The position numbers were made by a program, and so were the translations under genes. From assembly GCF_000003605.2 (NCBI RefSeq), contig NW_003113468.1:186320-221463 (forward strand): 35,144 bases of DNA, written 5' to 3'. Shown here piece by piece: positions 4,359 to 35,144 of the stretch. Source of the stretch: Saccoglossus kowalevskii (Eukaryota; Hemichordata; Enteropneusta; Harrimaniidae). Under the pieces are notes generated by a model. That model was given only the letters and a program-made list of their open reading frames with translations. It had not been told where the DNA came from and searched no databases. Position 1 is the stretch's first letter; each line of letters starts with the position of its first letter.

Positions 4359-4544
4359 TAATTTTACGTCACCGGTGACTCCCTAGGTGAGTCAATCTCA
4401 CGCGCAGTATCAGCGCCACCACGGGCGATATATTAATTTTAATTACAAAATACAAATATTAATATATACAAATATTCGCTAGTGCCACTATAGTCAAACA
4501 TCAAGCATTTTTACTCGAATACTCACTGTATATTGTAGTTTGAT

Positions 4545-5400
4545 AATTTATTGAAACACTTAAAATTCCTCAGAAGGAATTAAAATGGTTACACTAACTG
4601 CTAGTAAAACACATACTAGTATATAAAAAAAACATACACATTTTACAAAAAATACTATCTAAAGCACGACAATGGTTTAAAAAAACAAAAAAACAAAAAC
4701 AAACTACAATTACAAAACAACTATTGATATATGTAGGTAATAATATTGAAAAAAAATAGATGAAATAATAATTAAAAAAAAATAAGCAATAAACAGTAAA
4801 TCAATGAAACATGGAAATGAGAAAACAAAAGCGTATTAAAGGAGAAAAGTATTTATGTTAATTTACCAGAAGATGTTGCTGTCTAAGATTCGTGTTATTT
4901 TTGATAAATTGGGCAACTGGTATTTGTACATTCAGGTTTGTATCACCCATTAATTTTAAAAATGTATTGTAGTCACTCATATTCGTGAAGTTTATAATGT
5001 GCTTAGTAGACTCTTCAAATGGTAAAAGGGGCATTCAATCGTGAAATGGTACTCATCTTCTACTTTGTTATTTAAACACAGTTCGCAGATTCCTTTTCCT
5101 ATTTCGGTTTTTGGTTTGGTGTACCTCCCTGTTTCAATGTTTAGTTTATGATTGCTCAGACGGAACCTACTTAGACATTCACGTAGTTCGGCATTCTTTA
5201 TTTTGATCACATAATTTTCTAAAGTAAATTCATTTTTGAAATTTGTGTACGTTCTGAGTTTATTCCTTTTGTTATTGTTATTTTGGTTATCATCAGTCCC
5301 TATGTACATATTTTTTTAATGACCATGTACGTTCTTTTAAAAATCGATTTGATATCACGTTTACAATTATTGATGAAGAATTTATAACTTATTTTTTCAC
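4545..5400 (-). mobile_element. LINE (non-LTR retrotransposon) 3' fragment
   Basis: On the minus strand, 5309-4992 encodes the C-terminal end of a non-LTR reverse transcriptase ORF. The key pieces are LSRFRLSNHKLNIETGRY and the zinc-knuckle-like spacing C-x2-C-x9-H-x4-C in CELCLNNKVEDEYHFTIEC. A one-base frameshift near 4992 moves the frame, and the coding-like sequence resumes to about 4866, ending in a stop. An A-rich 3' tail follows and ends in TTTCAATAAA near 4545. The tail recurs at about 26045-26310. The copy is 5'-truncated: catalytic reverse transcriptase and endonuclease parts are missing, so it is dead. The clade (jockey, CR1 or other) cannot be settled from this end alone. Confidence 0.8.
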
Positions 5401-5897
5401 GATTTTGAAGAAAAACAGAAAGGGGGTCAAAAATTACGACAACGGGTACACGTTTGGCGAGGCTTACATCTAGGTCCCGGGCGTGGTTACAAGGAAGTCT
5501 AGCTCATTTTCATACTAGGATATTATGTTATCGTTACTATATTTAGTCCCGGCAATTTAAACACTTATTAGCTGTTATTAGTGCTTCCTTGATTGAATCT
5601 CGCATACTGCTCAAAACGAGGAAGTAATTCACCCGAAACTTGGAGTACAAATATCGTGGATGATGTACTGAGGTCACTATTCCACCATGACAATGTATTC
5701 TATTCAAGTTGATAACGTTTCCATTATGAGTCCGTCTGTAATCACTTTCGTCGGTATGAGCTTGGAAGGTGACTTGATTTCGATGCTATGGGGACACGTC
5801 TGACAGGTCAACGCACACCTTTGGTGTGGGTCAACACTCGATACGACTAAAATGTTGTTGGAAATCCCAACTCGGTGACAACTCACATTCATTAGAG

Positions 5898-5923
5898 CTC
5901 AGACTAGTATATACTAGTCTGAG
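5898..5923. repeat. 26-bp perfect palindrome
   Basis: The half-site CTCAGACTAGTAT (5898-5910) is followed directly by its exact reverse complement (5911-5923), with no spacer. A further GAGC lies outside on the right after a short interruption. Function is unknown. Confidence 0.9.
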
Positions 5924-5992
5924 ATTTGAGCCCAACAATTGGATTTTTGTCGATCTTCTATTTACTTGAATCCTAGAGTCCCGCGTCCTGCC

Positions 5993-6110
5993 AAGAATCC
6001 TACAACTAAAGATTTGAGAACTATGTTGGTTGAGATAAGATGCCCGCAACTAAAGATCTGAGATCTATGTCGGGTGGAGGTAAGATTCCCACAACTAAAG
6101 ATCCGAGTGT
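5993..6110. repeat. Minisatellite, 44-45 bp period, about 2.6 units
   Basis: Units begin at 5993, 6037 and 6082. Each carries a form of AAGATNCCNACAACTAAAGA followed by TNNGAG. The spacing is 44 then 45 bases. The short reverse-strand open frame across 5831-6049 partly derives from these units. Confidence 0.75.
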
Positions 6111-7420
6111 GGTGGGGCGGGAGTGTCAATCAATAAACATTCATTTGCGGCTAGTCAGACCAGAGGGCTCCCTGGTTAGACGTATATAAATCACAATATT
6201 TGAACTAACTTTGATTTATGATCTGATTTTAAGTTTTTTGTCCTGATCTAGCATAAATTATAGTTTCCGAAGCATTCAGTTATTGAGATTACATAATCAT
6301 GATGTTTTTCGCGACGCTGCTTCGCCCACAAGTTCTTGCACAATGGTAGGCATGTTAACGCCCATAGTATCAACTTAGAGTTTACTCAATAAACAATATC
6401 TCATAAGTTAATATGATTATCTTTACATTCTCATGTGCTATTGTACTTGTACATTAAAAAGCAAGTACAATTGTGGAGCATAGAAAGTAAAGTAAACGTT
6501 ATTGACATTGTACCCTCTTTAGGGTATTAAATTGATTACAATAAAATAAATATGTTTTAGAAAAAACATAAACAATGTGTTTTCATTTTTGCTTTCTAGA
6601 ATTTTTATTAAACAAACTTGATCAATGTGAAGGAGTGAATGCTGGGGTGGAGCCAGATGCTCCAAACTTTAAACGTCATAGTTTTACGAACTTCGAGTAT
6701 CATGGAAAATCCCATTATGAATAAGTAATTATCTCTGGTTATCGGTTAACAAAATAGTACAGATGTCACTAGAATTTCCATGATGGTCAGAGTTTAACAG
6801 GTGACTAATCTTGAGGTTATGACCATGCGCCGCCCACCCATACATCAGTGTATTCACACCTGGTCACGGGATACGTGGCACAACTTGAATGAGTCACTTT
6901 CTGGATTGGATAGCTCCAAGTTGCATTGATGTTGTCATGACGATGCTATGGGGCGACGCCCTCACTGGCGGAGTCCACATGCCGTCATGACAACGCATGC
7001 AAAGTATTTAGACTATTGGTTGAACGATTAACACTGTCGTTTATAAAAATGGGGGGTTCTAGCGTATTAAGTGAGAAGAGGACCGGGGGAGTATGGTGAC
7101 GATTGTAGTTGTAATAAATATCCGGCTATACTATATTACTGGTGTCCTTATGACTGAATGGTGCGTATAAGTGTCGAGCGATCCTAGTGTACCACTCACT
7201 GTCTTGCGAGTTACTCATTCCCCGTTACAACCACTTCCCGTATATTCAACCTGACGAACCATCCACCCATAACAACCCCTGATAGACGAAACCCGCATTG
7301 TTTACACCTGTCACTGTGTTTGCGGATTGACGAAATCCGTTTCCACAGTATTGTTGCGCTCAGTAGCATGACTGGACAATATTCGTGATCGCTCAAGAAT
7401 TATTTCGTTTTCACGAGTAT

Positions 7421-11080: not shown

Positions 11081-13142
11081 TTAAAACGAAACTGGTTTTC
11101 CATTGATTTTAAAGTCATTATATTTGCATGGTTCTAGAAACGAGAGTATGTTAGTCTGCTGACATGCTGCTAAGTCATAGGGTGTCTCTTGTTCAACATT
11201 ATAAAGTCCAGCATCAGCATTGTACTGAATCAGCAACTGAGTTCCTTCTAGGTATCCTCGACCAGTGGCTAAATGAAGAGGTGTTGACCCATTGTATGTC
11301 ATTGGATCAACATGTGCGTTAAATGTACCCAGAAGATATCTTGCCAAGTCTGTGTTCTGTCCTTCAATGGCATAATGTAATGCAGTACGACCACTCTTGC
11401 CATCCCCTGCATTAATATCTGCACCAAGGCGAACAAGATAGTCCAACACATAGACATGGTTACCAGATGCTGCCAAATGAACGCAAGTTAAACCTGGAAA
11501 AGCAAATGAGGAAACATTCAATACCAAAATTAGGAAGTTTTATTTTTTCAACTCCTGGAACTTTTACAGGATATAGTACTAGTACTCTAGATAAATGTAT
11601 CTAGATGGTTTCAGACAAAGGGACTTGTATTGGGGAAAATAAGGGGAATTCCCATATGCAAATAAGCCCTCATTTCCATATCTGGACAAAAGAATATTTA
11701 TATTTACCTTCATAGTTTCGGAGCTCCAAATCTTGGGGCATCTGTGTCCTAACACCTCTACGTTGCATTTGTCTACACTCCAGATTGTTTGGTGGAATGG
11801 TTAGGGCTTTAACTGTTTCAAGATCACCATTTTCACAGGCTAAATGCAGCGGTGTTTGCCCATGTCGATCTCTGGCATCAACAGTAGCACCAGCTATGAC
11901 AAGTTTTCGAGAAACTCTAGACATCTTTAGATATGAAGCTAGATGCAAAGGTGTCTGAAGTAAAAACAAAAATGAACATTTAGTATCTATACCTATACAT
12001 CACTCAGCAGAGATGTTGTCGAAAAAATGCCTGAACATCATGCAACCACACAACTGATAAAAATCAATGATAAAGTGAAATAAAACTGCCCATACCTGAA
12101 GAAGACTGTTATAGATATCAAGTTGTGCAGATGATGGTGCTTGCTTTATAATTATATCCACAACATCTTCTCTATTATGTATGATTGCTAGATGTAGATC
12201 TCTATAAAAAAAAAACATAGTAACATTTAATATCAGGTTACAAGTGTTCAAAGATATTAACATGCAGCATTTGATCAGAAAAATAACACTCACAAAAAGA
12301 GCACAAATTGTTGTTCCCTGTACCAGGTTCAAATACAATAATTGTTATTTGCAAGTAAATAATGGAAATTGATGGATAAACTATTTCCCTATCTGATAGT
12401 CTACACGCCCTGAATGGTTGTATGACTAAACATCCACAGTTCAGTAAACAACGAAATAGGAAGAGAGCAACGACCGCTTATTGACTAATTAGCATATCCT
12501 TTTATAGCAAAGGGAATTTACGTGGATGTTTGTTCGAGGGAAATAACCAGGGAATTACCGAAGCTTCTCACAATACGTTCGAAACCAGTTAAAACGTGTT
12601 ATGACGACATTCGCAACTATGACGACTTACAATATTAAATTATTATACTTCAAGTGAAAAAAATACGATACTTGTTCTAAACCGGGGCTGAAACTTATTC
12701 TAAACTACGACAACAACAAAATTATAATTTGTAATACTTACGTGTCTCCGTCTTCGTCTTGTAGGAATGCATTGATTTGAACGACGTTTTGTGCTTCTGT
12801 GCTTTCTTCTTGAACTTGAGCCAGTGTAGTTACTCCCCGTAGTACATCTTGTTGAATTGTTCTATTATTTATGCTAGATGAAATGTTTAGATTACCAAGC
12901 TCAGTCGATAAAGACGTGGCGCAACTATCAGTGTCTATTTGCGATCCGAATTCGTCGTTAAAAGATCTAGTTGCAGAATCTCCAATTGATCCGATGCCAG
13001 AGTCCGTACAATTTTCCATGGGCGCCTTTATATTGTTAAATTTCGGGTCAAATTTGTAATATTCGCGAGCATCCATGTCGTCGGGGCTTACGGGCCCAAC
13101 ACAATCTTCGACAACATCAGGCGATAGCAGAAAGTCCGACAT
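11081..13142 (-). CDS. NFKBIA: I-kappa-B (Cactus/NFKBIA-like) inhibitor of Rel/NF-kappa-B
   Basis: Four exons, 13142-12742, 12201-12096, 11954-11708 and 11493-11081, join in phase with GT/AG sites to give 388 residues and a TAA stop. The start is the ATG at 13142 (MSDFLLSPD); the frame upstream has no ATG before a stop. Residues 47-52 read DSGIGS, the DSGxxS signal that IKK kinases phosphorylate and that SCF-beta-TrCP recognises. Lys39, eight residues before it, is a possible ubiquitin site. Residues about 135-370 hold six ankyrin repeats, several with the TPLHLA core, as in vertebrate I-kappa-B-alpha. The protein should bind Rel dimers in the cytoplasm, mask their nuclear import signal and be destroyed on stimulation. 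There is a 30-residue acidic and Ser-rich stretch before the repeats, but no obvious C-terminal PEST tail. A possible poly(A) signal on the minus strand lies at 10760-10755. The gene symbol marks the family, not a strict ortholog. Confidence 0.95.
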
Positions 13143-13201
13143 ATTGAATTCTTCGGTACGCGACGTTTCTGTGTTTCGAAAACTGGTCTTGTACCACACT
13201 A

Positions 13202-13209
13202 TATTTATA
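13202..13209 (-). promoter_or_regulatory. TATA box of the I-kappa-B gene
   Basis: The minus strand reads TATAAATA here, about 60 bases upstream of the chosen ATG. That spacing would put transcription start near 13175 with a short leader. A second TATAAA on the minus strand lies at 13332-13327 and could serve a longer transcript, which would carry a short upstream frame from the ATG at 13273. Confidence 0.55.
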
Positions 13210-13359
13210 AAACAGTTAATCGTGCGAGTTAAATCGATCTCTCAATAAGTCCAAATTATCCAGAATATCGCATGCAGCTGTGTAGTATGTGCAACAAATA
13301 TTGGATAAATTTACACATACGCACCCTTTATAAACCAGCCTAACAACTAACTCTTCTTC

Positions 13360-17332: not shown

Positions 17333-17338
17333 TTTATT
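17333..17338 (-). terminator. Poly(A) signal overlapping the Kelch-BTB stop codon
   Basis: The minus strand reads AATAAA across 17338-17333, and its central TAA is the stop codon (17336-17334). No other AATAAA is evident in the next several hundred bases. If used, the 3' untranslated region would be only some tens of bases. Confidence 0.5.
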
Positions 17339-20300
17339 TCGTGCTATTAGCAGTCTTATCTGCTATAACACAAGCTTTGCATATTTTAATAATACTTTCA
17401 AACTGAAGTACTTCAGCAAGTTGGAGAAGTTTCGGTAGTTTATCAAAATCTGTGATTGACAATGTGTATAACACATGTAAGACCAATTCGATGTCTGCAG
17501 CACTAACTCCGTAGATTTCTATGATTGTATATTCTCCGTCAATCCTTTGTAAGTTAATCGACATGTCTTCCGAATGTACAAAAACCGACGATTGCCCTGC
17601 AACATGAAGTAAAAATAGAGATGCCGTAATATAATTATGTAGTAAAAAATGTTTGTATGAATAAATAATTTAAGTGCTAATAAATTAGATAATATGTTAA
17701 TGTGATCAAAAATAACATTTGCGACGACATTTTAATCGTGATGGAGCAATGCACGCAACATTAAACTGATATTGTTGTAATATTTACTGATTCAAAGACA
17801 CATTTAATCCCTCAGAACAAAATGCACCATTTCGGCTTTTAAATTTGAGTTAGAATTATAATTGTATACCAAATACCGAGGTGAAATACCTGAACAAAAA
17901 CATTCACATGTAACGTCGGTGCTTACCTTCCATTAGAAGACGTCTACAGACTGGGCTTGAAGCAGCCAACACCATGCCATGTACGAAATAACATTTCCCA
18001 GTTGTTTTCAATTGAACGTCGCAAAGAAAACTTTCATTAAATAAGTCATAAAGACCTTGCAGTATACTCGAACCATATTCCGGATTCATAATGCCAAAAT
18101 CGCCTCCAGTTTGTTTTGAACTGCTTTCCCTTAAAAGTACAATATGGTAAAATATGACACATATAAAACAAACAAACAAGGCAGAAAATACAGAACACAT
18201 CATCATTCCATTTACATTTTAGATCATGTGATTCAATAATTTGTTTACATTCTGTCACGATGACCTTTAGGATATATGATATATGAATATACTATACGTT
18301 TCAATAGTCTATGTATTAACTTATTTTCAGGGACTCTGAGATAGAAATTCTCCAGCCTAGACAGATCATGGTGAATCGACAGTTTGACAGATTTAGATAC
18401 TTACCCTTTTATAACTACCGACTCATCTTCAGACAACAAATACTTCGGCACTTTCAATAAACATAATGCCTGACAGCCTTCAAATTGCAATAGAGGTGAC
18501 TCTACGCATGTCTTCTTTGAAGGGTCGTAACACAGAACACTTCTACTGACAATAAAATCATACTCATAGAAGTGTCCATGTAAGGCATAAATTTGACCAT
18601 CCTTGAAAACAGCTTTATACCCAGCTATTGTTGTACCAAGAGATCTGCCAGGAATCTGTATTGCTCCTTGTGTATCAGCTAAGACCCATGTATTGTTACA
18701 TGGATCGTACATCTCCATTTTCCACAAGCAGTTGATGCGATCATGGCTCAACCCCCCAATTGCATATATAGTATCACCTACAGTAAGCATACTGTGCCAT
18801 GTTCTTTCAATATTCATAGATTCTTTCATCTCCCACTCATCAATCTCTGTACAATACGTATATAGCTTCTTGCTGATATAATAAGGAGAGCCAGGATGAC
18901 CACCAGTGATGTAGAGTTTTCCCTTGTATGCTGTCCCAGCATGGGCATACAGTTTGACCGGTAATGGCTTGACCAATGTCCAACTATTAGTTTGTAAATC
19001 ATATACCTCTACAATGTTCATGCCATATTTGTCATTACAGTTTCTACCACATACTGCATATAGTTTTCCATCCAATGAGACAAAGCAGAAATCAGTACGT
19101 CTGTGATTCATTGGTGCAACTTTGGCCCAGCCACCATGCCTTGGGTCATAGCGATACACCTCATCTGTGGCAAATGTTGTACCACTACGGTCATCATCTA
19201 AAGCTTCATGGATCTCCCCACCGGCAATGTAAAGGACATTGTTAACAACAGCTACTCTATATGAGAGTTGGTTTACTGGCATTCGACTCAACTTTCTCCA
19301 TCTACCAATCCTTTTATCCAGTCTATGTAGATGAGCCTGTCGATTAATCGCTAAACCTTCCATCGAGATAAGTACCTCTTCCTCGTCATCTTCGTCTAAG
19401 GCATTTGTTTCAGCATGTCTTTGAGGAAAAAAGTGGTTGAGCTGTGCATGGATTATTCGATCTTGACTAACTGGGTCATCCATCTTGAAACAGTCTTCCA
19501 CTACACAATCAACAAGTTCTTCCACCTGCATGCTAGAAAATTTCACTGTTTGAAGCAATTTTGAAGCATCGTTGATTCTGATACCTTTGTTTTCTTTGAT
19601 CCATGCTTGTATGATATTGAACACCTTAAGTGGCTTATGACATTGGATTCTTGGCTGTTTCAATAGATACATCATGTTTTCCAGAGATAAGTCAGACAGT
19701 GTGGATTGGTAAGAATTTGCCACATCTATGAAGACATCCAAAAGGTTTACCACTTCATGTCGGCCTATGAATTCATCATGTAGATTGTACAAAGCTGCTA
19801 TGTTGAAGCTCTCCACAAAGTTCTGAGGACAGGTGCCTTCACGTAAAAACTGCAGACAAAGTTCCATTACTGCAGCAATTTGAAAATGACTTCCAGCATG
19901 TAGTACACCTATGAAATTGTCACCATCCAATGACAAACATCCAGAAGAAATATATTGCATTATCGCACAAAAAGCATCTTTGGAGATGCTGAAGATTTGA
20001 ATTTCCATTTGCTTTGTAGTACTCTCTTTCAATCCTCCTGTAAACATGACTTTAAAATAATCGCTACATGAAGATAATAGGGTTTTGCTACAAGAGAACT
20101 TCTTATCTTCTACTACTAAAACAACTTTATCGCTCTTAGTCATTATTTCTGACAATTTGTAAACTTGTTTAATTAACTTATTTGATTCTTCCCTTTGAAA
20201 ATTTGCAGCAACCTTATCCATGTCTTGGGAAATTACTTCACTTTGAGACTTCTCATCATTCAGACTTTCAGCATCATTTTCAACCGGCAATTTGTAAAAG

Positions 20301-22040
20301 TGTGGTCCTTGATCAATATTTTGTAGAGGTCCAAATAAACCTGAAATAAAATGTTGGTCTGATTATTATATATACTATCTGCATCACTTTGGTATCTTAT
20401 CTAATATACAAATATTGTAATATATTGCTAAACCCTCACATACACCTACACACAATGGGTAGCATATAATCATCATCTATTATCTTCCATTTGTAGTTTT
20501 TAAAACTTATTATGTAAATCATACTCATTTCTGTGAGTTTTAATTTGTATATGACTAACATTGAGATTAATTACTTATCGACATATTAGTGCTTAGTAAA
20601 GGGAAATGTGTTTCCATCGCGGAGGGGTTATTGCATTCCATACAATATAAACATATATAAATACATAAAAAATATAGAAAGGTACTTACGAATGCGTGAA
20701 AGGTCAATAGTGCCCTGTTCTGGTGTTAAATTCTTTTGTAGTTTCAATGTACAAATCCGTGGGTATGGCATTTTGTCGGTTTTCTGCATTAACTCCCAGT
20801 TATTCGCCTTCATGTTGTATTTGATTAATGTATTACTCTTATCACTCATAGCAACACTGTCAACTCCCAGAATATAAATCGTATCCTCCATGAATGTACA
20901 ACTTGGCCAGATGATTCCATGTGGGATTGTACTTCCCAGTCGTGACCATGAGTCGGTGCCTGGACTGTACAGATCAATAGTGTCTAGCATGCACCCATCA
21001 GAATTTTCTCCACCAATTATAAATATGCCAAATTTTGGGGTTTTGCAGGTGCCATGATTAGAACGGCTAACAAGGAGTGTTCGTTTTTGCGAAAATGTGC
21101 ACATGACAGTGTCAAAGCACATGTTTACACTGCTGCGTTTACATGCAGTACCAATTGTTGAATAAGCTGATCTTGATCCTTCAGATTGGTTACATCTAAA
21201 TTCATGCATGCCACCCATGATGTAGATGACATCATTAATTGCTTCTGCGCCATGACAACATAACTTATTAAGCAGATTCCCCACTACATGCCACACATTG
21301 TGTTTAGGGTCGTACATTTCTATGGTCGAGGAAATGTGAAAATGTAGATTGCCTTGTTCATTTACAGTGGAATTTATCCCACCAATAGCATACAAACGAT
21401 TCTTGGATGCCACCAGACTGAAGAAACAACGATTTTCTACCATTTTAGCCATGGGGCACCAACATCTTCTTTCAAAGTCATACAGAAATAATTCATTTGA
21501 AATAATCTGCCTTATGGTGGTGGGACTGTAAAAACTTCCTCCTGCAACATAGAGACTGTTGTTGAACGTTGCTATACCACAACCAAACCGATTCTTGATA
21601 TCTGGTACATCATATGAGTTGTCGTCTGGTCTAATATTAAAACAATGCATCCAACCCTTATTCACGTCCGAGCTACACTTAATAGAATGTCCTTCAATCA
21701 TCACAACGTTATCATCTAAGTTATCTTTACTGATTTTTTCTAGAGGTTTTCTCCATGGCAACAAGTGACGATTAAGCATGCGCGAGATTGCTAACTTGGG
21801 GCATCTGTTCAAGAATGGATACACATCACTGGACTCGCGGAGAGATGGAATATTTAAATGTTGAAGAAAATGGTCTATAGTAGGAAGGGTTTCTTTTTCA
21901 TTCAGCTTTGTAGTCATGTTTTCATTCCTTTCGACATTTTGTGTGGGTTTATCTTTTTCAGAGCCGTTTAGATGTGTCCTTTCTTGCAACAACTTTGTAA
22001 AACCTTCCCCAGAAGACTGATGAGTAGGGTGGTCTGACAT
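17334..22040 (-). CDS. Fused Kelch-BTB-BACK-Kelch-BTB protein, 1250 residues
   Basis: Four exons, 22040-20690, 20340-18405, 18129-17927 and 17596-17334, join in phases 1, 2 and 1 with GTAAG donors and AG acceptors. The ATG at 22040 has an in-frame TGA 18 bases before it. Residues 55-105 resemble the end of a BACK domain (RHLLPWRKPL). Residues 111-435 form about six Kelch blades (YVAGG, YAIGG, YIMGG, FIIGG motifs). Residues 516-617 are a BTB domain (LSSCSDYFKVMFTGGLKES), though the usual His of the AHR motif is Ser. Residues 620-752 are BACK and 772-1079 a second six-blade Kelch propeller. Residues 1120-1240 are a second BTB domain (GKCYFVHGMVLAASSPVCRR), split by the last intron, with no BACK after it. 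BTB-Kelch proteins usually recruit substrates to Cullin-3 ubiquitin ligases through BTB-BACK and the propeller. This architecture is far longer than the usual 550-650 residues. A poly(A) signal overlaps the stop codon. Met491 in exon 2 could start a conventional BTB-Kelch product, so separate transcripts remain possible. Confidence 0.87.
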
Positions 22041-22630
22041 TTTAATTCGAGTTAAGCTTCAAGTGATACAGTATACTGTAGGGAGATACAAGTTTAAAAA
22101 GTGTCATATACTAGTAATTTCGGACGCATATTATACTATACTATACTATACTATTAACATCTATTTAGAGTTTAGTTAATCGCACAAAACATCATTGTCT
22201 GAAAACTATAACTAAAGAACAAATTAATACGTCTTGTGGGCAAATTATGAAAGATACATGGCCAACAAATAGTTTAACATGACCTTTAACCTATCGGTAA
22301 AACCTACATTACAGTTTACAGGCAGTTCATAACATGAATTCAAATAAACTTAGTTGTTTCCTTTGTTGACTAATTTTTGTTAGGAAATATCACATAAATA
22401 TGGAAATCAACGTGATCAACTAAAATCTACTTGCTTATGTTTTAACAACCTCTATCAAACACGAATCAGCATAGTATTTTACGATTGATGCTATATTAAC
22501 AATAGTCCCTGTGTTTACATGACCCTCAGCATAGAAATAAATTTACTTGTTTTCATAATCAGAATTGCAATCAATTGTTATTTTAATGAATTTTGATTAT
22601 TATTATTTTTTTGAATATTGTTATTTTAAT
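22041..22630. other. 5' flank of the Kelch-BTB gene
   Basis: No coding frame is seen. An ATACT pentamer repeat of about five units lies at 22131-22154. No clear TATA box or initiator could be assigned. Confidence 0.45.
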
Positions 22631-24325
22631 GTTAACAGTGTACCATAATGCCATACATGCTAATAGTGTACTGTCATGTCATACAAGTTAACAGTGTACA
22701 ATAAAGTCATACATGTTAACAGTTTACCATAATGTCATACATGTTATCAGTGTATCATAATGCCATACATGTTAACAGTGTACACAATGTAATACATGTT
22801 AACAGTTTACCATATGGCATACATGTTAACAGCTTACAATATTGTCATACATGTTAACAGTGTACCATAATGTNNNNNNNNNNNNNNNNNNNNNNNNNNN
22901 NNNNNNNNNNNNNNNNNNNNNNNNNNNNNNNNNNNNNNNNNNNNNNNNNNNNNNNNNNNNNNNNNNNNNNNNNNNNNNNNNNNNNNNNNNNNNNNNNNNN
23001 NNNNNNNNNNNNNNNNNNNNNNNNNNNNNNNNNNNNNNNNNNNNNNNNNNNNNNNNNNNNNNNNNNNNNNNNNNNNNNNNNNNNNNNNNNNNNNNNNNNN
23101 NNNNNNNNNNNNNNNNNNNNNNNNNNNNNNNNNNNNNNNNNNNNNNNNNNNNNNNNNNNNNNNNNNNNNNNNNNNNNNNNNNNNNNNNNNNNNNNNNNNN
23201 NNNNNNNNNNNNNNNNNNNNNNNNNNNNNNNNNNNNNNNNNNNNNNNNNNNNNNNNNNNNNNNNNNNNNNNNNNNNNNNNNNNNNNNNNNNNNNNNNNNN
23301 NNNNNNNNNNNNNNNNNNNNNNNNNNNNNNNNNNNNNNNNNNNNNNNNNNNNNNNNNNNNNNNNNNNNNNNNNNNNNNNNNNNNNNNNNNNNNNNNNNNN
23401 NNNNNNNNNNNNNNNNNNNNNNNNNNNNNNNNNNNNNNNNNNNNNNNNNNNNNNNNNNNNNNNNNNNNNNNNNNNNNNNNNNNNNNNNNNNNNNNNNNNN
23501 NNNNNNNNNNNNNNNNNNNNNNNNNNNNNNNNNNNNGGTGTACACAATGCCATACATGTTAACAGTGTACCATAATGTCATACATGTTATCAGTGTATCA
23601 TAATGCCATACATGTTAACAGTGTACACAATGCCATACATGTTAACAGTTTACCATATGTTATACATGTTAACAGTGTACTGTCATGTCATACATGTTAA
23701 CAGCTTACCATATTGTCATACATGTTAACAGTGTACCACAATGTCATACATGTTAACAGTGTACCATAATGTCATACATGTTAAATTTATACCATAATGC
23801 CATATATGCTAACAGTACAACGTAATGTCATTGCATGTTAACAGTGTATCGTAATGTCATACATGATAACAGTGTATGATAATGTCATACATGTTAACAG
23901 TGTACCATAATGTCATACATGCTAACAGTGTATCGTAATATCATACATGTTAACAGTGTACCATAATGTCATACATGTTAACAACGTATCGTAATGTCAC
24001 ACATGTTAAATGTGAACTATAATGCCATGCATGTTAACAGTGTACCATAATGTCATATATGCTAACAGTACATTGTAATGTCATACATGTTAACTGTGTA
24101 TCATAATGTCATACATGTTAACAGTGTACCATAACGCCATATATGTTAACAGTTTACTATAATGTCATATATGTTAACAGTGTATCGTAATGTCATGCAT
24201 GTTAGGTGTGTATCATAATATCATACATGTTCACAGTGCATCGTAATGACATACTAGTATATATTAACTAATGTCATACATGCTAACAGTGTATCGTAAT
24301 GTCATACATGTTAACAGTGAAGTGT
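22631..24325. repeat. 28-bp satellite array spanning an assembly gap
   Basis: Dozens of imperfect copies of a 28-base unit run through this stretch. Each unit consists of CATACATGTTAACAG, then TGTACC, then ATAATGT. Some units are 27 bases and many differ at a few sites, so the array is moderately old. Bases 22874-23536 are Ns and presumably hide more of the array. The unit has a TGTTAACA core that is self-complementary. It has no coding role; open frames that cross the Ns are artefacts. Confidence 0.93.
22874..23536. other. Assembly gap, 663 Ns
   Basis: Both edges lie inside the 28-bp satellite, so the gap is a collapsed or unresolved part of that array. The true length is unknown. Confidence 0.98.
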
Positions 24326-25627: not shown

Positions 25628-28600
25628 ATGTCACTTCTCCGGGAAAGTATCGAATTGCTCTGTCGTTCAATCACGCTTTGTGGGACGACGAAAATTACCC
25701 CAGAGTGCTTCAGACAGGCTAAGTTTGATAAGCAAGAAGCGGTGAGTTTTCTTATTTAACAGATCAAACATACTAACTTTTTATATGGTAAATATAATAT
25801 TATTCCTACGTATTAATATATCCAACACAAATAAATTTTCTTTTGGGTGATAATAAACTATAATAAATTATTATTATAATCAGAGGTACATTACTATGGC
25901 CGTTGCAAACCCCAAGTAATGTACCTCTGTTATAATATATTAATATTAAAAATGTACCCTTTCTAAACCAAGCATCAGTTGATAATTTACGATGATGTCA
26001 TTTTTATACTATCTTTCAGGTATCTATAGTTAGAGATCAAAGTCCCTGCAGTTTAGTTTATTGAAACATTCAAAATTCCTCAGAAGGAATTAAAATGGTT
26101 ACACTAACTGCTAAAATACATATATAAAACATACAAATTTTACAAAAAATACTATCTAAAGCACGACATGGTTTAAAAAAAAACAAAAAAAAATATAGAT
26201 ATATGTAGGTATATATATTGAAAAAATAAATAGATGAAATAATAATAATAAAAAAAATGAGCAATATACAGTAAGTCAATTCATGTTCTATTTTAAAAGT
26301 AATCAAACCGGTATTTTGGAATCTAAATATTTATAAATTCAAACTACATTTACACATAGCATGAGCTCATGCAGTGCTGGAGTGCATTAGCGCTACCACC
26401 TTGACATGCCCCAGTCTGCAAAGTTTTTGTTCCATGCACCTCATTTAAACAACATTCAGACCAATATCATAGTTGCTGCTCGTCTCACAACTCTGACAAG
26501 TGACATGTTGCTGGTAAATATTCCATCCGATATGTTTGTCTTTGATTAAATATACTGTGAGAAAGAGTCGTCGTCATTTTATATCATTTGACAAGACAAA
26601 ATATATACGGTATATTAAAGAATAGAAAACAGTGTGAATACCACTGCACATTGTCAAACTAGCAATGGCATTCTAACTGTCGTAGAATAACCCTAACCCT
26701 AACAATTGTAGAATGGTGAACTGGGGCATCTCGGCAGTTTTTCCACCTTTGCTTGCATTGATGGGTAATCATTAGATAAAAAGTTGTTTAGATAATTTTC
26801 TCAAACATGAAATGCAACAGGGTATACTTTTAAAATATATTCATTCATTTCACTTACAAAGCAATGGACCAATACAATCACAGGACACTACTCCTGGATT
26901 GTTTTTGCATACAGACTCACTCTTTATCAGTTCTGGATATTACTGTAAAATGACTAAATTTCAGTGGGTTTAAATTTCGCTGATTTACCATTTCAGGCAT
27001 ATTCAGTGGGTTTTAAATTCACGGTTTTATCATTTAGATAATGTGTTCTATGCTAAATTTTACATATTCACTGGGTTTTTAATTTAGCGCATTTTCCAGT
27101 ATCTAACTGTTTTTGTCCCAAGCAACAATTCATCATGTAACATAACATTGTCATACAATTGCCTTTTAGGTATACATAGTTTATTGGGATGAAAGTCTCC
27201 AGGATAGTCTTGACGCAATTTTTTGTTTTATTCAAAACGTAATGATAATTTATGGAATGTAATTCTATCATGTTAAATATTTTTTATATATATTTTAATT
27301 CATGATATATAAAAATTATAATTATTTATCTTTTTATTCTTGATGACTCTAGATTAATTTTGTTTTTTCAATTTATAATAATAATAATAATATTTATTGC
27401 ATTAGAAATACAGTATTTCTATCAGTACAGTAGCAATAAAAGTATAACAAAGTATAATAATGAAATAATAAAGAAATTTTGAGCTTTTTTGTGTTTCTAT
27501 TGCTAAAATGTACTGTCAGGTGAGCCAATTTAATATTGTACAATTTATTCCATATACCGATAAATGCAGTTGTCTGCACTGTGACCTCCACGTTGTTTAT
27601 TTTTATTATTGGGTATGTTTTACAGGTGATGCCATTTTGGGTACTACTCTATGAATTGCTGTACTTCCTACAATATGGACAATTCCAAGATGTAAAATAT
27701 GTAGAAAACCAGACTAAGAAAGACATAATAGTTATCGTGAAGCACTGGATGTATAGTCATGGATACAGGTCCAGTCAATTCTTCAGTCTTACTATGCATA
27801 TGCTTAATGGAAGCCGTGAACTTTTACTTGCATTTGGATGGTTAGTTGGCAAATACCACATCATAGATAAATTGACATCTCATTGTTGTTCAACACTTGT
27901 AACTGATAACTGTGAACTAGGCGGATCATGTATGGACAGTATTCCGGATAGATATACTAGAGCTGATAAGGGAAATTATCAATGGTTTGCCCACTACTTG
28001 CCATGGTTGAGTGGTAGACTGCAGCTATCTATGAGAGGATTGTACTCTGCTGAAATGGAGAAGTGTAGTATGTCACACCATGTACATGATTTTACGCAAG
28101 GACTGTCATTGTCTAATTACTCTACTCATTTATCTACGTCTGAGACCCAGCTCTTAAGACACCCAAAACTGCTTGACAAGGTATGGTGTTGATTGCATAG
28201 TCAATTCCTAATTGAGTAATTTGCATAATGCTTGAATCTTCCTTTTTGTTAATATAGAACAGTAATGTATTGAACTAACTGAAATTCTATTTTTTAGTAT
28301 TTTTGTTAATTCTAATTAGTTTTACTTGAAATTTATTTTTCTGATATTTGACAAGAATAAAATAAAATCTGTTAAAAATATTGTACTTTTTCAAACCAAT
28401 ACAACCAACTTATCGTACTAGTACATACTACATTATTCATCCATTCATCTACCTATTAAATTTAGTCTGTTGTATTACCAGTACATACTTTCTGAATAAC
28501 ACACTGCCATGCATTGATGTAAGACTTATTTATTTTTGTTTATTCACACTTTAAGTGCTGTGTATCACTTGAAACCCAGAATACTACTATGCATGCCTTG

Positions 28601-32792: not shown

Positions 32793-33782
32793 TTAGATTT
32801 TGACTATGTCTTTGTGGCAGTTATCGTGTCTGCAACGAATATTATCGGCAGAAAGCGACCAATGACCCCATAGTTTGGCACGTTCTATTTTCTGAGCATT
32901 TCCTAAAACGTGATTATTCAAAATGACAATCGGCTGTGTATGTGACCGTATCTCCTTATTTGTGTACCATAATCCACTGACGAATCTCTCAACCGGTAGC
33001 CACTGTATGTTAGCTGATTTCTCTGTCTCGATAATATCACTCAGAAACACTTGTTCCGAGCCTGCCATCCCGATATTTCGCCATCCTTCTTGGTTTCGGT
33101 AACCCTTCATTTTTTCAGTAAGTTGACGTGTAAGTTCGTTCCACATTCGCTGACTTGTGTGCGTAGCGTTAATATAGAGAAACCCTCCATTGACCATGCA
33201 GTGTTGGCAATGTTTACCTTTATTCTGCATTACAACCATGTCCACACTCGACTGGGCGAAATATTCAAGTGGGTCGTCGAACCAGGTAGCGTCGGCTTCT
33301 GTTTCAAAAATGCTGAAATTCCTTTGCAAGAGTTGGTTCATGATTTTGACACGAAATAACCCAAAATAGTAATAAATAACCTCACCGTATGTCATCTCGT
33401 GTTTAGTTCCGTATTCAAGCAAAATTACATTGAGATCGTCTTTCCACTCCGCCAGTCCACGGTACGCATCGACGTCAGTTGTTATAAATATCGTTTTTGG
33501 TAAAATACTGAAACATTCAACATTGCAAATCCAATTCTTCGTTAAAGTTAAAAAACCCGAATTCAAGAACTGAAGTACAACGAATCCATGTTTTTGTTTT
33601 ATGGCCTTGGCAATGGTTACTAGTTCGTCGCTCACCCTGATTTCAGAAATGTCTGGTGGCCTATACGTATGTATAATATTGATATGATAGACATACAGGG
33701 AAATTAAGATAACGGCTCCCAGCACAAAGACGATTCTCGATCGACTAGTCATCCTTAACTTGGCCCGTACAGAAGAAACCAT
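32793..33782 (-). CDS. Type II membrane glycosyltransferase (nucleotide-diphospho-sugar transferase family)
   Basis: This is a single uninterrupted frame of 329 residues. Its ATG lies in CAACATGG, a strong start context. Residues 16-37 are one hydrophobic segment after a short basic cytoplasmic tail, so it is a Golgi-style type II anchor. The luminal part carries TTDVDAY (101-107) and TEADATWFDDP (161-171), the acidic D-x-D-type site that holds metal and nucleotide-sugar in the Nucleotid_trans family (PF03407). NGGFLYIN (198-205), SEQVFLSDII (242-251) and NNHVLGN...GHW (289-308) follow in the family order. Sites for N-linked glycans are NFS at 155 and NAT at 205. The family includes plant xylosyl- and arabinosyltransferases and expanded animal members; the donor sugar and acceptor cannot be told here. 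A poly(A) signal on the minus strand is at 32510-32505. Lack of introns fits a small or retro-derived gene. Confidence 0.85.
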   Translation of the reverse strand: MVSSVRAKLRMTSRSRIVFVLGAVILISLYVYHINIIHTYRPPDISEIRVSDELVTIAKAIKQKHGFVVLQFLNSGFLTLTKNWICNVECFSILPKTIFITTDVDAYRGLAEWKDDLNVILLEYGTKHEMTYGEVIYYYFGLFRVKIMNQLLQRNFSIFETEADATWFDDPLEYFAQSSVDMVVMQNKGKHCQHCMVNGGFLYINATHTSQRMWNELTRQLTEKMKGYRNQEGWRNIGMAGSEQVFLSDIIETEKSANIQWLPVERFVSGLWYTNKEIRSHTQPIVILNNHVLGNAQKIERAKLWGHWSLSADNIRCRHDNCHKDIVKI

Positions 33783-34034
33783 GTTGAGGTCAGAACAAGA
33801 TCCATATTACCTTTATTGGCAATGTTACAACCACGAGCACAGGGTCGGCGACACGTAGTTAATATTTAATACTAGTAGATTGTTCTCTGTAAACCATTAA
33901 ATTATTCTGTTCAAAACATGGTAACCGTTTTTACCATTATTATAGTCATACAAATTGACACAATGTACTATTTGGAAGTATTGAATACCTAGACCCGTAT
34001 TTTATTCAAGTAGCGGTTGTATAAATATATATAC

Positions 34035-34425
34035 CATAGTAGGCAATATGTCATAGTAGGCAATATGTCATAGTAGGCAATATGTCATAGTAGGCAATAT
34101 GTCATAGTAGGCAATATGTCATAGTAAGCAATATGTCATAGTAAGCAATATGTCATAGTAGGCAATATGTCATAGTAGGCAATATGTCATAGTAGGCAAT
34201 ATGTCATAGTAGGCAATATGTCATAGTAAGCAATATGTCATAGTAGGCAATATGTCATAGTAGGCAATATGTCATAGTAGGCAATATGTCATAGTAGGCA
34301 ATATGTCATAGTAGGCAATATGTCATAGTAGGCAATATGTCATAGTAGGCAATATGTCATAGTAGGCAATATGTCATAGTAGGCAATATGTCATAGTAGG
34401 CAATATGTCATAGTAGGCAATATGT
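34035..34425. repeat. 17-bp tandem array, exactly 23 units
   Basis: The unit CATAGTAGGCAATATGT repeats 23 times with no length change (391 bases). Only copies 6, 7 and 12 differ, each by the same G-to-A change that gives GTAAGC. Such uniformity implies recent expansion or strong homogenisation. It lies about 250 bases upstream of the glycosyltransferase start codon. Confidence 0.97.
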
Positions 34426-35144
34426 CGGTCATTTCATTTTTGTACCAGGCCTTGGATGTAATCTAATTTATGTATTTCCATATATCGGATCATGGAGGTA
34501 ATAATCCATGATCGGATAGAGTGTTTTGACCACTGGGCACAATCCCTCAGTTTTGAAGGACTGTGTTTTGACACTATGAATTGGCTTATTTATATTTATC
34601 ACGTGACTGAAATGCGACACTAGATCATGTTTCAATATAAATAAAGTCTTCAGATAGCCCGTGTTTAGCAGCAAATGATACCGTTTCTAGTTGCATTTCT
34701 CCCTTGTGCCATAGAGACTATAATTTTCGCGAAATTGCCTTTTAGGTGTACCATACCGACCCCCATCTCAAAACATGTCCATAGTTTGATATCTAGAAAA
34801 ATAAATTCAGTTGATTACACGTATCCTGTTTCACTTATCCGTTCTCGTATTTGCCGAAGAGGGCTCAGAGTCTATGTTTTAGAGACCAAATCTGAAAACA
34901 GTATTCCAGGTTGCGAACTAATGAAAAATACTACAATTTTAAGACATTAACTTCCTCAATCAGAATATAGGTAAAATCGTAGAAAAAATACTGCTCATGA
35001 GGGTATCATCAAACTGAATAAAATCATTTGCAATAACAAAATCTGACATTACACTTTATTTGAATTACTTAAAATTTAATCGAATATTTATCGTTTAGAC
35101 ATACCACAATCTGATTAAATCTGAATCCGATGTAGGTATAAGCT
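34426..35144. other. Right edge, no gene seen
   Basis: Short open frames occur on both strands but none shows recognisable sequence. No repeat or RNA gene was identified before the window ends. Confidence 0.4.

Follow-up and report, generated by a model that had tools for sequence, protein, structure and literature searches.

A 35,144-nucleotide stretch of the genome of the hemichordate Saccoglossus kowalevskii (contig NW_003113468.1, positions 186,320 to 221,463; hereafter the window) raises the question of whether Kelch, BTB and BACK domains that follow one another on the same strand belong to one protein or to neighboring genes of the KLHL family. KLHL proteins have one BTB, one BACK and one Kelch propeller and pair via the BTB domain. 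On the minus strand of the window, from 22040 to 17334, four exons with GT-AG borders join in frame to encode 1250 residues in the order Kelch, BTB, BACK, Kelch, BTB. Judging by features of the sequence, we consider it quite likely that the four exons form a single gene. With somewhat less confidence, we favor the view that this gene specifies a 1250-residue Cullin-3 (Cul3) adaptor that arose from a tandem KLHL array fused by splicing.

Gene model, domains and their order

The exons, frames and domains can be read directly from the DNA. The codons split at the three junctions are C/GT, GG/G and G/GG, and the 1250 codons plus stop end at 17334; these boundaries, frames and codons are exactly those of a preliminary description that had claimed four exons joined in frame. 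The three introns are of similar size. The features of the locus, in window coordinates, are as follows.

20690..22040, minus strand: exon 1; start ATG at 22040, N-terminal tail of ~110 residues, then six-bladed Kelch propeller 1 (blade strands 21710 to 20862)
20341..20689, minus strand: intron 1; 349 nt, GTAAGT...CAG, phase 1
18405..20340, minus strand: exon 2; linker, BTB1 (20185-19844), BACK (~19843-19427) and six-bladed Kelch propeller 2 (19378-18449)
20024..20038, minus strand: GGLKE in BTB1; the phi-x-E Cul3-contact motif, letters identical in the aligned KLHL22
18130..18404, minus strand: intron 2; 275 nt, with the stop TAA of the exon 2 frame (18403-18401) inside the GTAAGT donor
17927..18129, minus strand: exon 3; short linker leading into the first half of BTB2, with an ATG inside it at 18089
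17597..17926, minus strand: intron 3; 330 nt, within BTB2, donor best of 388 and acceptor best of 333 in the region scored
17334..17596, minus strand: exon 4; remaining half of BTB2, then the stop codon; BACK is not matched beyond it
17333..17338, minus strand: AATAAA polyadenylation signal; overlaps the exon 4 stop and is the sole AATAAA on the minus strand between 16.5 and 22.7 kb

Pfam matches Kelch_1 in exon 1 (E 5e-28), BTB (6e-18), BACK (8e-7, profile positions 35-102 of 103) and Kelch_1 (5e-29) in exon 2, and the two parts of a further BTB in exon 3 (E 1.6e-5, profile 2-41 of 110) and exon 4 (E 8e-7, profile 50-106). A BTB profile built from other BTBs of the same genome, with the window excluded, matches BTB1 (residues 504-616) and BTB2 (residues 1114-1238) over almost their full length, with 66.5 and 49.2 bits. 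The two propellers and two BTBs announced earlier are borne out. Each propeller has six blades, with strand motifs, chosen by eye and then mapped, at residues 111-393 (propeller 1) and 772-1039 (propeller 2). No second BACK follows BTB2: that of exon 2 is the contig's only BACK match at E 0.01, and the stop codon lies 12 codons past the end of the BTB2 match. BTB2 is split by an intron and, early in exon 4, has an excess of 16 residues over the BTB profile, at a place where the frame of a related gene on contig C1173 is open. A scan with NCBIfam matched bacterial propeller enzymes alone, weakly and in every case far below the cut-offs.

Exon 2 alone has the KLHL order of BTB, BACK and Kelch, with a weak BACK match, and amounts to a complete KLHL with a phi-x-E motif. 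The window protein differs in its added propeller in front and added BTB behind; provided that the splicing is real, it departs from the KLHL layout of a single N-terminal BTB and a single C-terminal propeller. LZTR1, described as a circularly permuted KLHL relative with a duplicated BTB-BACK region (PMC10146909), resembles it in having an N-terminal Kelch propeller ahead of BTB-BACK and two BTBs per chain, but the window protein has its second propeller between the BTBs, C-terminal to BACK, and no BACK match after BTB2. Orthology to LZTR1 was rejected on the wrong domain order and the single BACK. The attractin/LZTR1-type propeller profile PF24981 scores 72.4-73.1 bits on exon 2 and 42.6-63.8 bits on exon 1, and it also matches many KLHL propellers of the same genome. 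Elsewhere, this profile matches in several pieces at C4771:366294-367903 and C2720:195564-198491, each a candidate LZTR1 or attractin gene.

A scan of the species' own genome (572 Mb) at E 0.001 yielded at least 90 BTB matches (100 of 100 candidates scored) and at least 129 Kelch matches (150 of 215 scored). Both kinds occur in 39 contig-strand sets, 38 of which have BTB first. The sole set with Kelch before BTB is that of the window's contig, reading K K BTB K K K BTB, where only the exon 4 half of BTB2 passed the cut. The earlier claim of an order unlike that of KLHL or LZTR1 is supported, though such a scan may miss LZTR1-type genes with short exons. In open PMC text no description spelled Kelch-BTB-BACK-Kelch-BTB was found; only the shorter spelling Kelch-BTB-BACK occurs there, once in each of two papers. 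We regard the order as a new arrangement of known KLHL-type parts, and annotated but unpublished animal proteins of the same order may exist.

One gene or several

We favor a single gene, and infer a single transcript, because the exon 1 and exon 2 frames end at GTAAGT, the parts fit in frame, exon 2 has a strong donor, and the first two gaps lack AATAAA. Both frames reach GTAAGT shortly past the last Kelch strand. The chance of meeting this hexamer between that strand and the next stop is p ~0.028 for exon 1 and 0.0145 for exon 2, at a rate set by the 19 occurrences on both strands of the window, the two exon-end sites counted in. The stop of the exon 2 frame falls within intron 2, at donor 18405. 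Ranked by weight matrices based on the general splice-site consensus, the donors of exons 1, 2 and 3 come 44th, 2nd and 1st among 388 GT sites, and the acceptors of exons 2, 3 and 4 come 8th, 29th and 1st among 333 sites. Intron 1 has no AATAAA and one ATTAAA (20544), and intron 2 has neither form.

Alternatively, the locus may comprise two or three separate tandem genes: exon 1 would encode Kelch alone, exon 2 BTB-BACK-Kelch, and exons 3-4 a lone BTB translated from ATG 18089. Each part has a possible ATG of its own (22040, 20221 and 18089), neither donor 1 nor acceptor 2 is a strong site, and exon 2 by itself would make a normal KLHL. Against this stand the gaps of 349 and 275 nucleotides, the ending of both upstream frames at GTAAGT, the in-frame fit of the parts, and the lack of AATAAA in either gap, intron 1 having one ATTAAA. 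We consider this arrangement unlikely. It is still less probable that one gene makes chiefly a Kelch-BTB-BACK-Kelch protein by retaining intron 2 and using the stop at 18401, with the BTB of exons 3-4 serving as an alternative C terminus. The immediate stop inside the donor and the mediocre acceptor 2 would suit such retention, whereas the second rank of donor 18405 and the lack of both AATAAA and ATTAAA in intron 2 argue otherwise.

The coding character of the joining segments was gauged by a codon score, which separates weakly in general, since even the plainly coding exon 1 scores just 0.043 per codon. The null consisted of stop-free non-coding stretches, averaging -0.13 at 42 codons and -0.155 at 13 codons. 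Both joining segments score like coding sequence: the opening 42 codons of exon 2, of which 39 precede the first Met, have 0.16 per codon, just below the null's 95% point, and 12 of the 13 codons before the exon 3 Met have 0.24 per codon, just above the 95% point and under the 99% point. Random stretches drawn from four presumed non-coding regions were stop-free in 2000 of 111,543 cases at 67 codons and in 1915 of 400,000 at 86 codons.

Several observations weigh against a single gene. Donor 1 ranks only 44th because of its poor exon side (TTC), and acceptor 2, at 29 of 333, is mediocre. An in-frame fit by itself is easily obtained: the frame would be preserved by 10 of the 26 AGs near intron 1 and by 7 of the 15 near intron 2, and 5 and 4 of these, respectively, lie where the exon 2 and exon 3 frames are open. 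The last 20 codons of exon 2 score -0.086, which is not coding-like, and exons 3 and 4 (0.031 and 0.019) fail the null's 95% point. The exon 3 ATG (residue 1110) stands four codons before the BTB match (residue 1114), as it would in a separate BTB gene. Finally, scans of prokaryote and viral contigs, where an orthologue was hardly to be expected, gave 13 and 1 pattern matches, none of them confirmed.

The single gene might also be longer than modeled, if a BTB-BACK exon of the first unit lay upstream of exon 1 and was lost in an assembly gap. The gap, 663 Ns at 22874-23536, lies 0.8 kb upstream within a 28-bp minisatellite, and an acceptor-like site at 22075 ranks 6 of 333. On the other side, an in-frame TGA upstream is separated from ATG 22040 by six codons, the contig has no further BTB (E 0.001) or BACK (E 0.01) match, and minisatellite is present at both edges of the gap. 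Such a longer array seems very improbable.

BTB1, BTB2 and a predicted Cul3 contact

KLHL adaptors act as homodimers in which BTBs, propellers and Cul3 sites each occur twice. The two BTBs of the window protein differ at the position of the phi-x-E motif, where BTB1 reads LKE, with the motif kept, and BTB2 reads QSS, with the motif missing. Among the 28 aligned BTB domains the motif is present in 17; BTB2 lacks it, as does C1173, the nearest kin of BTB2 in the BTB tree. Conversely, the conserved His of the element preceding the motif is found in 26 of the 27 domains covering it; BTB1 is the sole exception, and BTB2 keeps this His. KLHL22 has the same GGLKE as BTB1; counting along the alignment, the Leu of BTB1 falls at chain residue 83. 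The CRL3-KLHL22 complex is described as having the adaptor paired via BTB, with the first elements swapped, and Leu83 of phi-x-E in a hydrophobic core with Cul3 (PMC11074293), while the KEAP1-Cul3 complex is given as 2:2 (PMC10564622).

Because BTB2 lacks both the phi-x-E motif and a following BACK, a single predicted Cul3 site per chain is the likelier arrangement and the better guess. The bridging of two Cul3 complexes put forward in the preliminary description is not supported: BTB2 has QSS in place of LKE, and the BACK match of exon 2 is the only one on the contig. Bridging would require dimerization of the whole protein through further contacts. The capacity of two propellers to hold two clients is a possible, candidate function.

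In the mechanism that we propose, BTB1-BACK would recruit Cul3 by its phi-x-E motif, and each of the two divergent propellers would present a client of its own or a separate site on a shared client. BTB2 would be a dimerization partner rather than a Cul3 site, possibly in an internal BTB1-BTB2 pair. It could pair with BTB1 of the same chain, by analogy with what has been suggested for the tandem BTBs of RhoBTB or, alternatively, with another chain. RhoBTB likewise has two BTBs in one chain, for which an intramolecular dimer has been suggested (PMC1257465); it differs in having a GTPase domain, no Kelch propellers and adjacent BTBs. The PDB search with BTB2 lists chain 4u2n, which is named for both ZBTB17 and NAC1. 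This chain we take to be a tethered BTB heterodimer.

The complementary pattern, with BTB1 having the motif without the His and BTB2 the His without the motif, tentatively suggests an asymmetric KLHL dimer built into a single chain, a reading that we hold as rather doubtful. If the halves do pair internally, the result would be a hard-wired heterodimer combining two client sites with one Cul3, an arrangement that identical chains would not produce by pairing. In KLHL homodimers, a mutation alters both copies of a site, so that it is hard to establish whether the two propellers or the two Cul3 arms are both required. A natural chain that has two different propellers together with one intact Cul3 motif, if real, would make each site testable separately and provide a natural guide for one-chain, two-client degraders.

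Some results fit this picture less well. The first third of the exon 2 BACK, the site of the 3-box, is unmatched by Pfam, although the KLHL22 alignment does extend through that part. The two best PDB matches of BTB2 are BTB-zinc-finger-type chains, covering the first half of the domain; its first whole-domain match is KLHL26 (E 3e-6). Compared directly, BTB1 and BTB2 have no significant similarity (E 0.32).

Kinship, proposed origin and surroundings

The nearest structure for exon 2 is KLHL22 (8khp), aligned over residues 71-533 of 644 (E 1.3e-51), GGLKE included. For exon 1, the first PDB matches are SAKe chains, presumably designed Kelch proteins, followed by KLHL3, 2, 17 and 20. In a tree of 27 BTBs (of 28 domains, the first BTB of C2606 being dropped at <90 residues), BTB2 pairs with C1173 (95/84, starred) and BTB1 falls in the same set of seven (87/80); the bootstrap of this tree had not settled and its branches are long. 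In a tree of 17 propellers, taken from fetched loci rather than from all Kelch loci of the genome and leaving out C1304 and C999, which have Kelch matches in their frames too, both window propellers group with C1173, C1602a and C1602b (87/88, not starred). From C3354 and C2592, the final 325 residues entered this tree; the remaining paralogues were cut at a strand motif chosen by eye, and the C1602b sequence extends only as far as its frame break.

These groupings suggest, as a lead, that a single KLHL subfamily supplied all modules, a trimmed tandem array being the simplest route; it is a lead only because branches are long and the BTB-tree bootstrap unsettled. The starting point would be a tandem array of this subfamily, whose nearest members in the genome are C1173 and C1602. 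Trimming would have left one complete BTB-BACK-Kelch copy, preceded by just the Kelch end of a different copy and followed by the BTB start of another, and splicing would have fused these pieces. Two results count the other way. The fork uniting the two window propellers is supported by 67/47 only, and the BACK-tail remnant expected before propeller 1 from a trimmed array was not found there, 573 of 2000 shuffles being as good. A simple recent internal duplication was also considered and is not shown, the propellers being 26% identical over 224 residues and BTB1 and BTB2 having no significant alignment. If true, the fusion of trimmed copies would be an example of tandem KLHL genes joining by splicing, to which the double-BTB forms of the same genome would add a second route.

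Five of these forms are single open frames reading BTB-BTB-BACK-Kelch: C1345 (L017), C1730 (L040), C2606 (L019, first BTB incomplete), C3278 (L039) and C3581 (L020). Further double-BTB cases are C4085 (L038; BTB-BTB-BACK) and C2922 (two BTBs). In the five frames the two BTBs are adjacent, with no intron required to join them. The first BTB is without phi-x-E in all six aligned pairs, the ALE of C3581 not being counted as the motif, and the second has it in four of six; in four of the five BTB-BTB-BACK-Kelch frames, the BTB adjacent to BACK has the motif while the other lacks it. These five resemble the window protein in having two BTBs in one Kelch protein, but their BTBs are adjacent and N-terminal, Kelch comes only after, and their treed BTBs stand apart from the window's two. 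Derivation of BTB2 from the extra BTBs of double-BTB proteins was dropped, as BTB2 falls elsewhere in the BTB tree.

A KLHL gene related to the window's lies at L022 (C1602:187500-197400), 4484-6338 on the minus strand. Its last Kelch part is in another, overlapping frame, and its open reading frames (ORFs) of 522 and 112 residues may reflect a frameshift, an assembly error or an intron.

Around the locus, the 28-bp minisatellite spans 22629-24319, 0.6 kb upstream of exon 1, flanking the 663-N gap on both sides. Ankyrin-repeat exons (Pfam Ank), with an upstream ORF without Pfam match, occupy 11081-13241 on the minus strand; at a guess, this locus resembles an I-kappa-B-type gene. A TEDC1 match (Pfam E 4e-27) lies at 27524-28192 on the plus strand and a single-ORF nucleotide-diphospho-sugar transferase (E 7e-21) at 32793-33806 on the minus strand, and a 17-bp tandem repeat of 23 copies with 98% matches spans 34035-34426.

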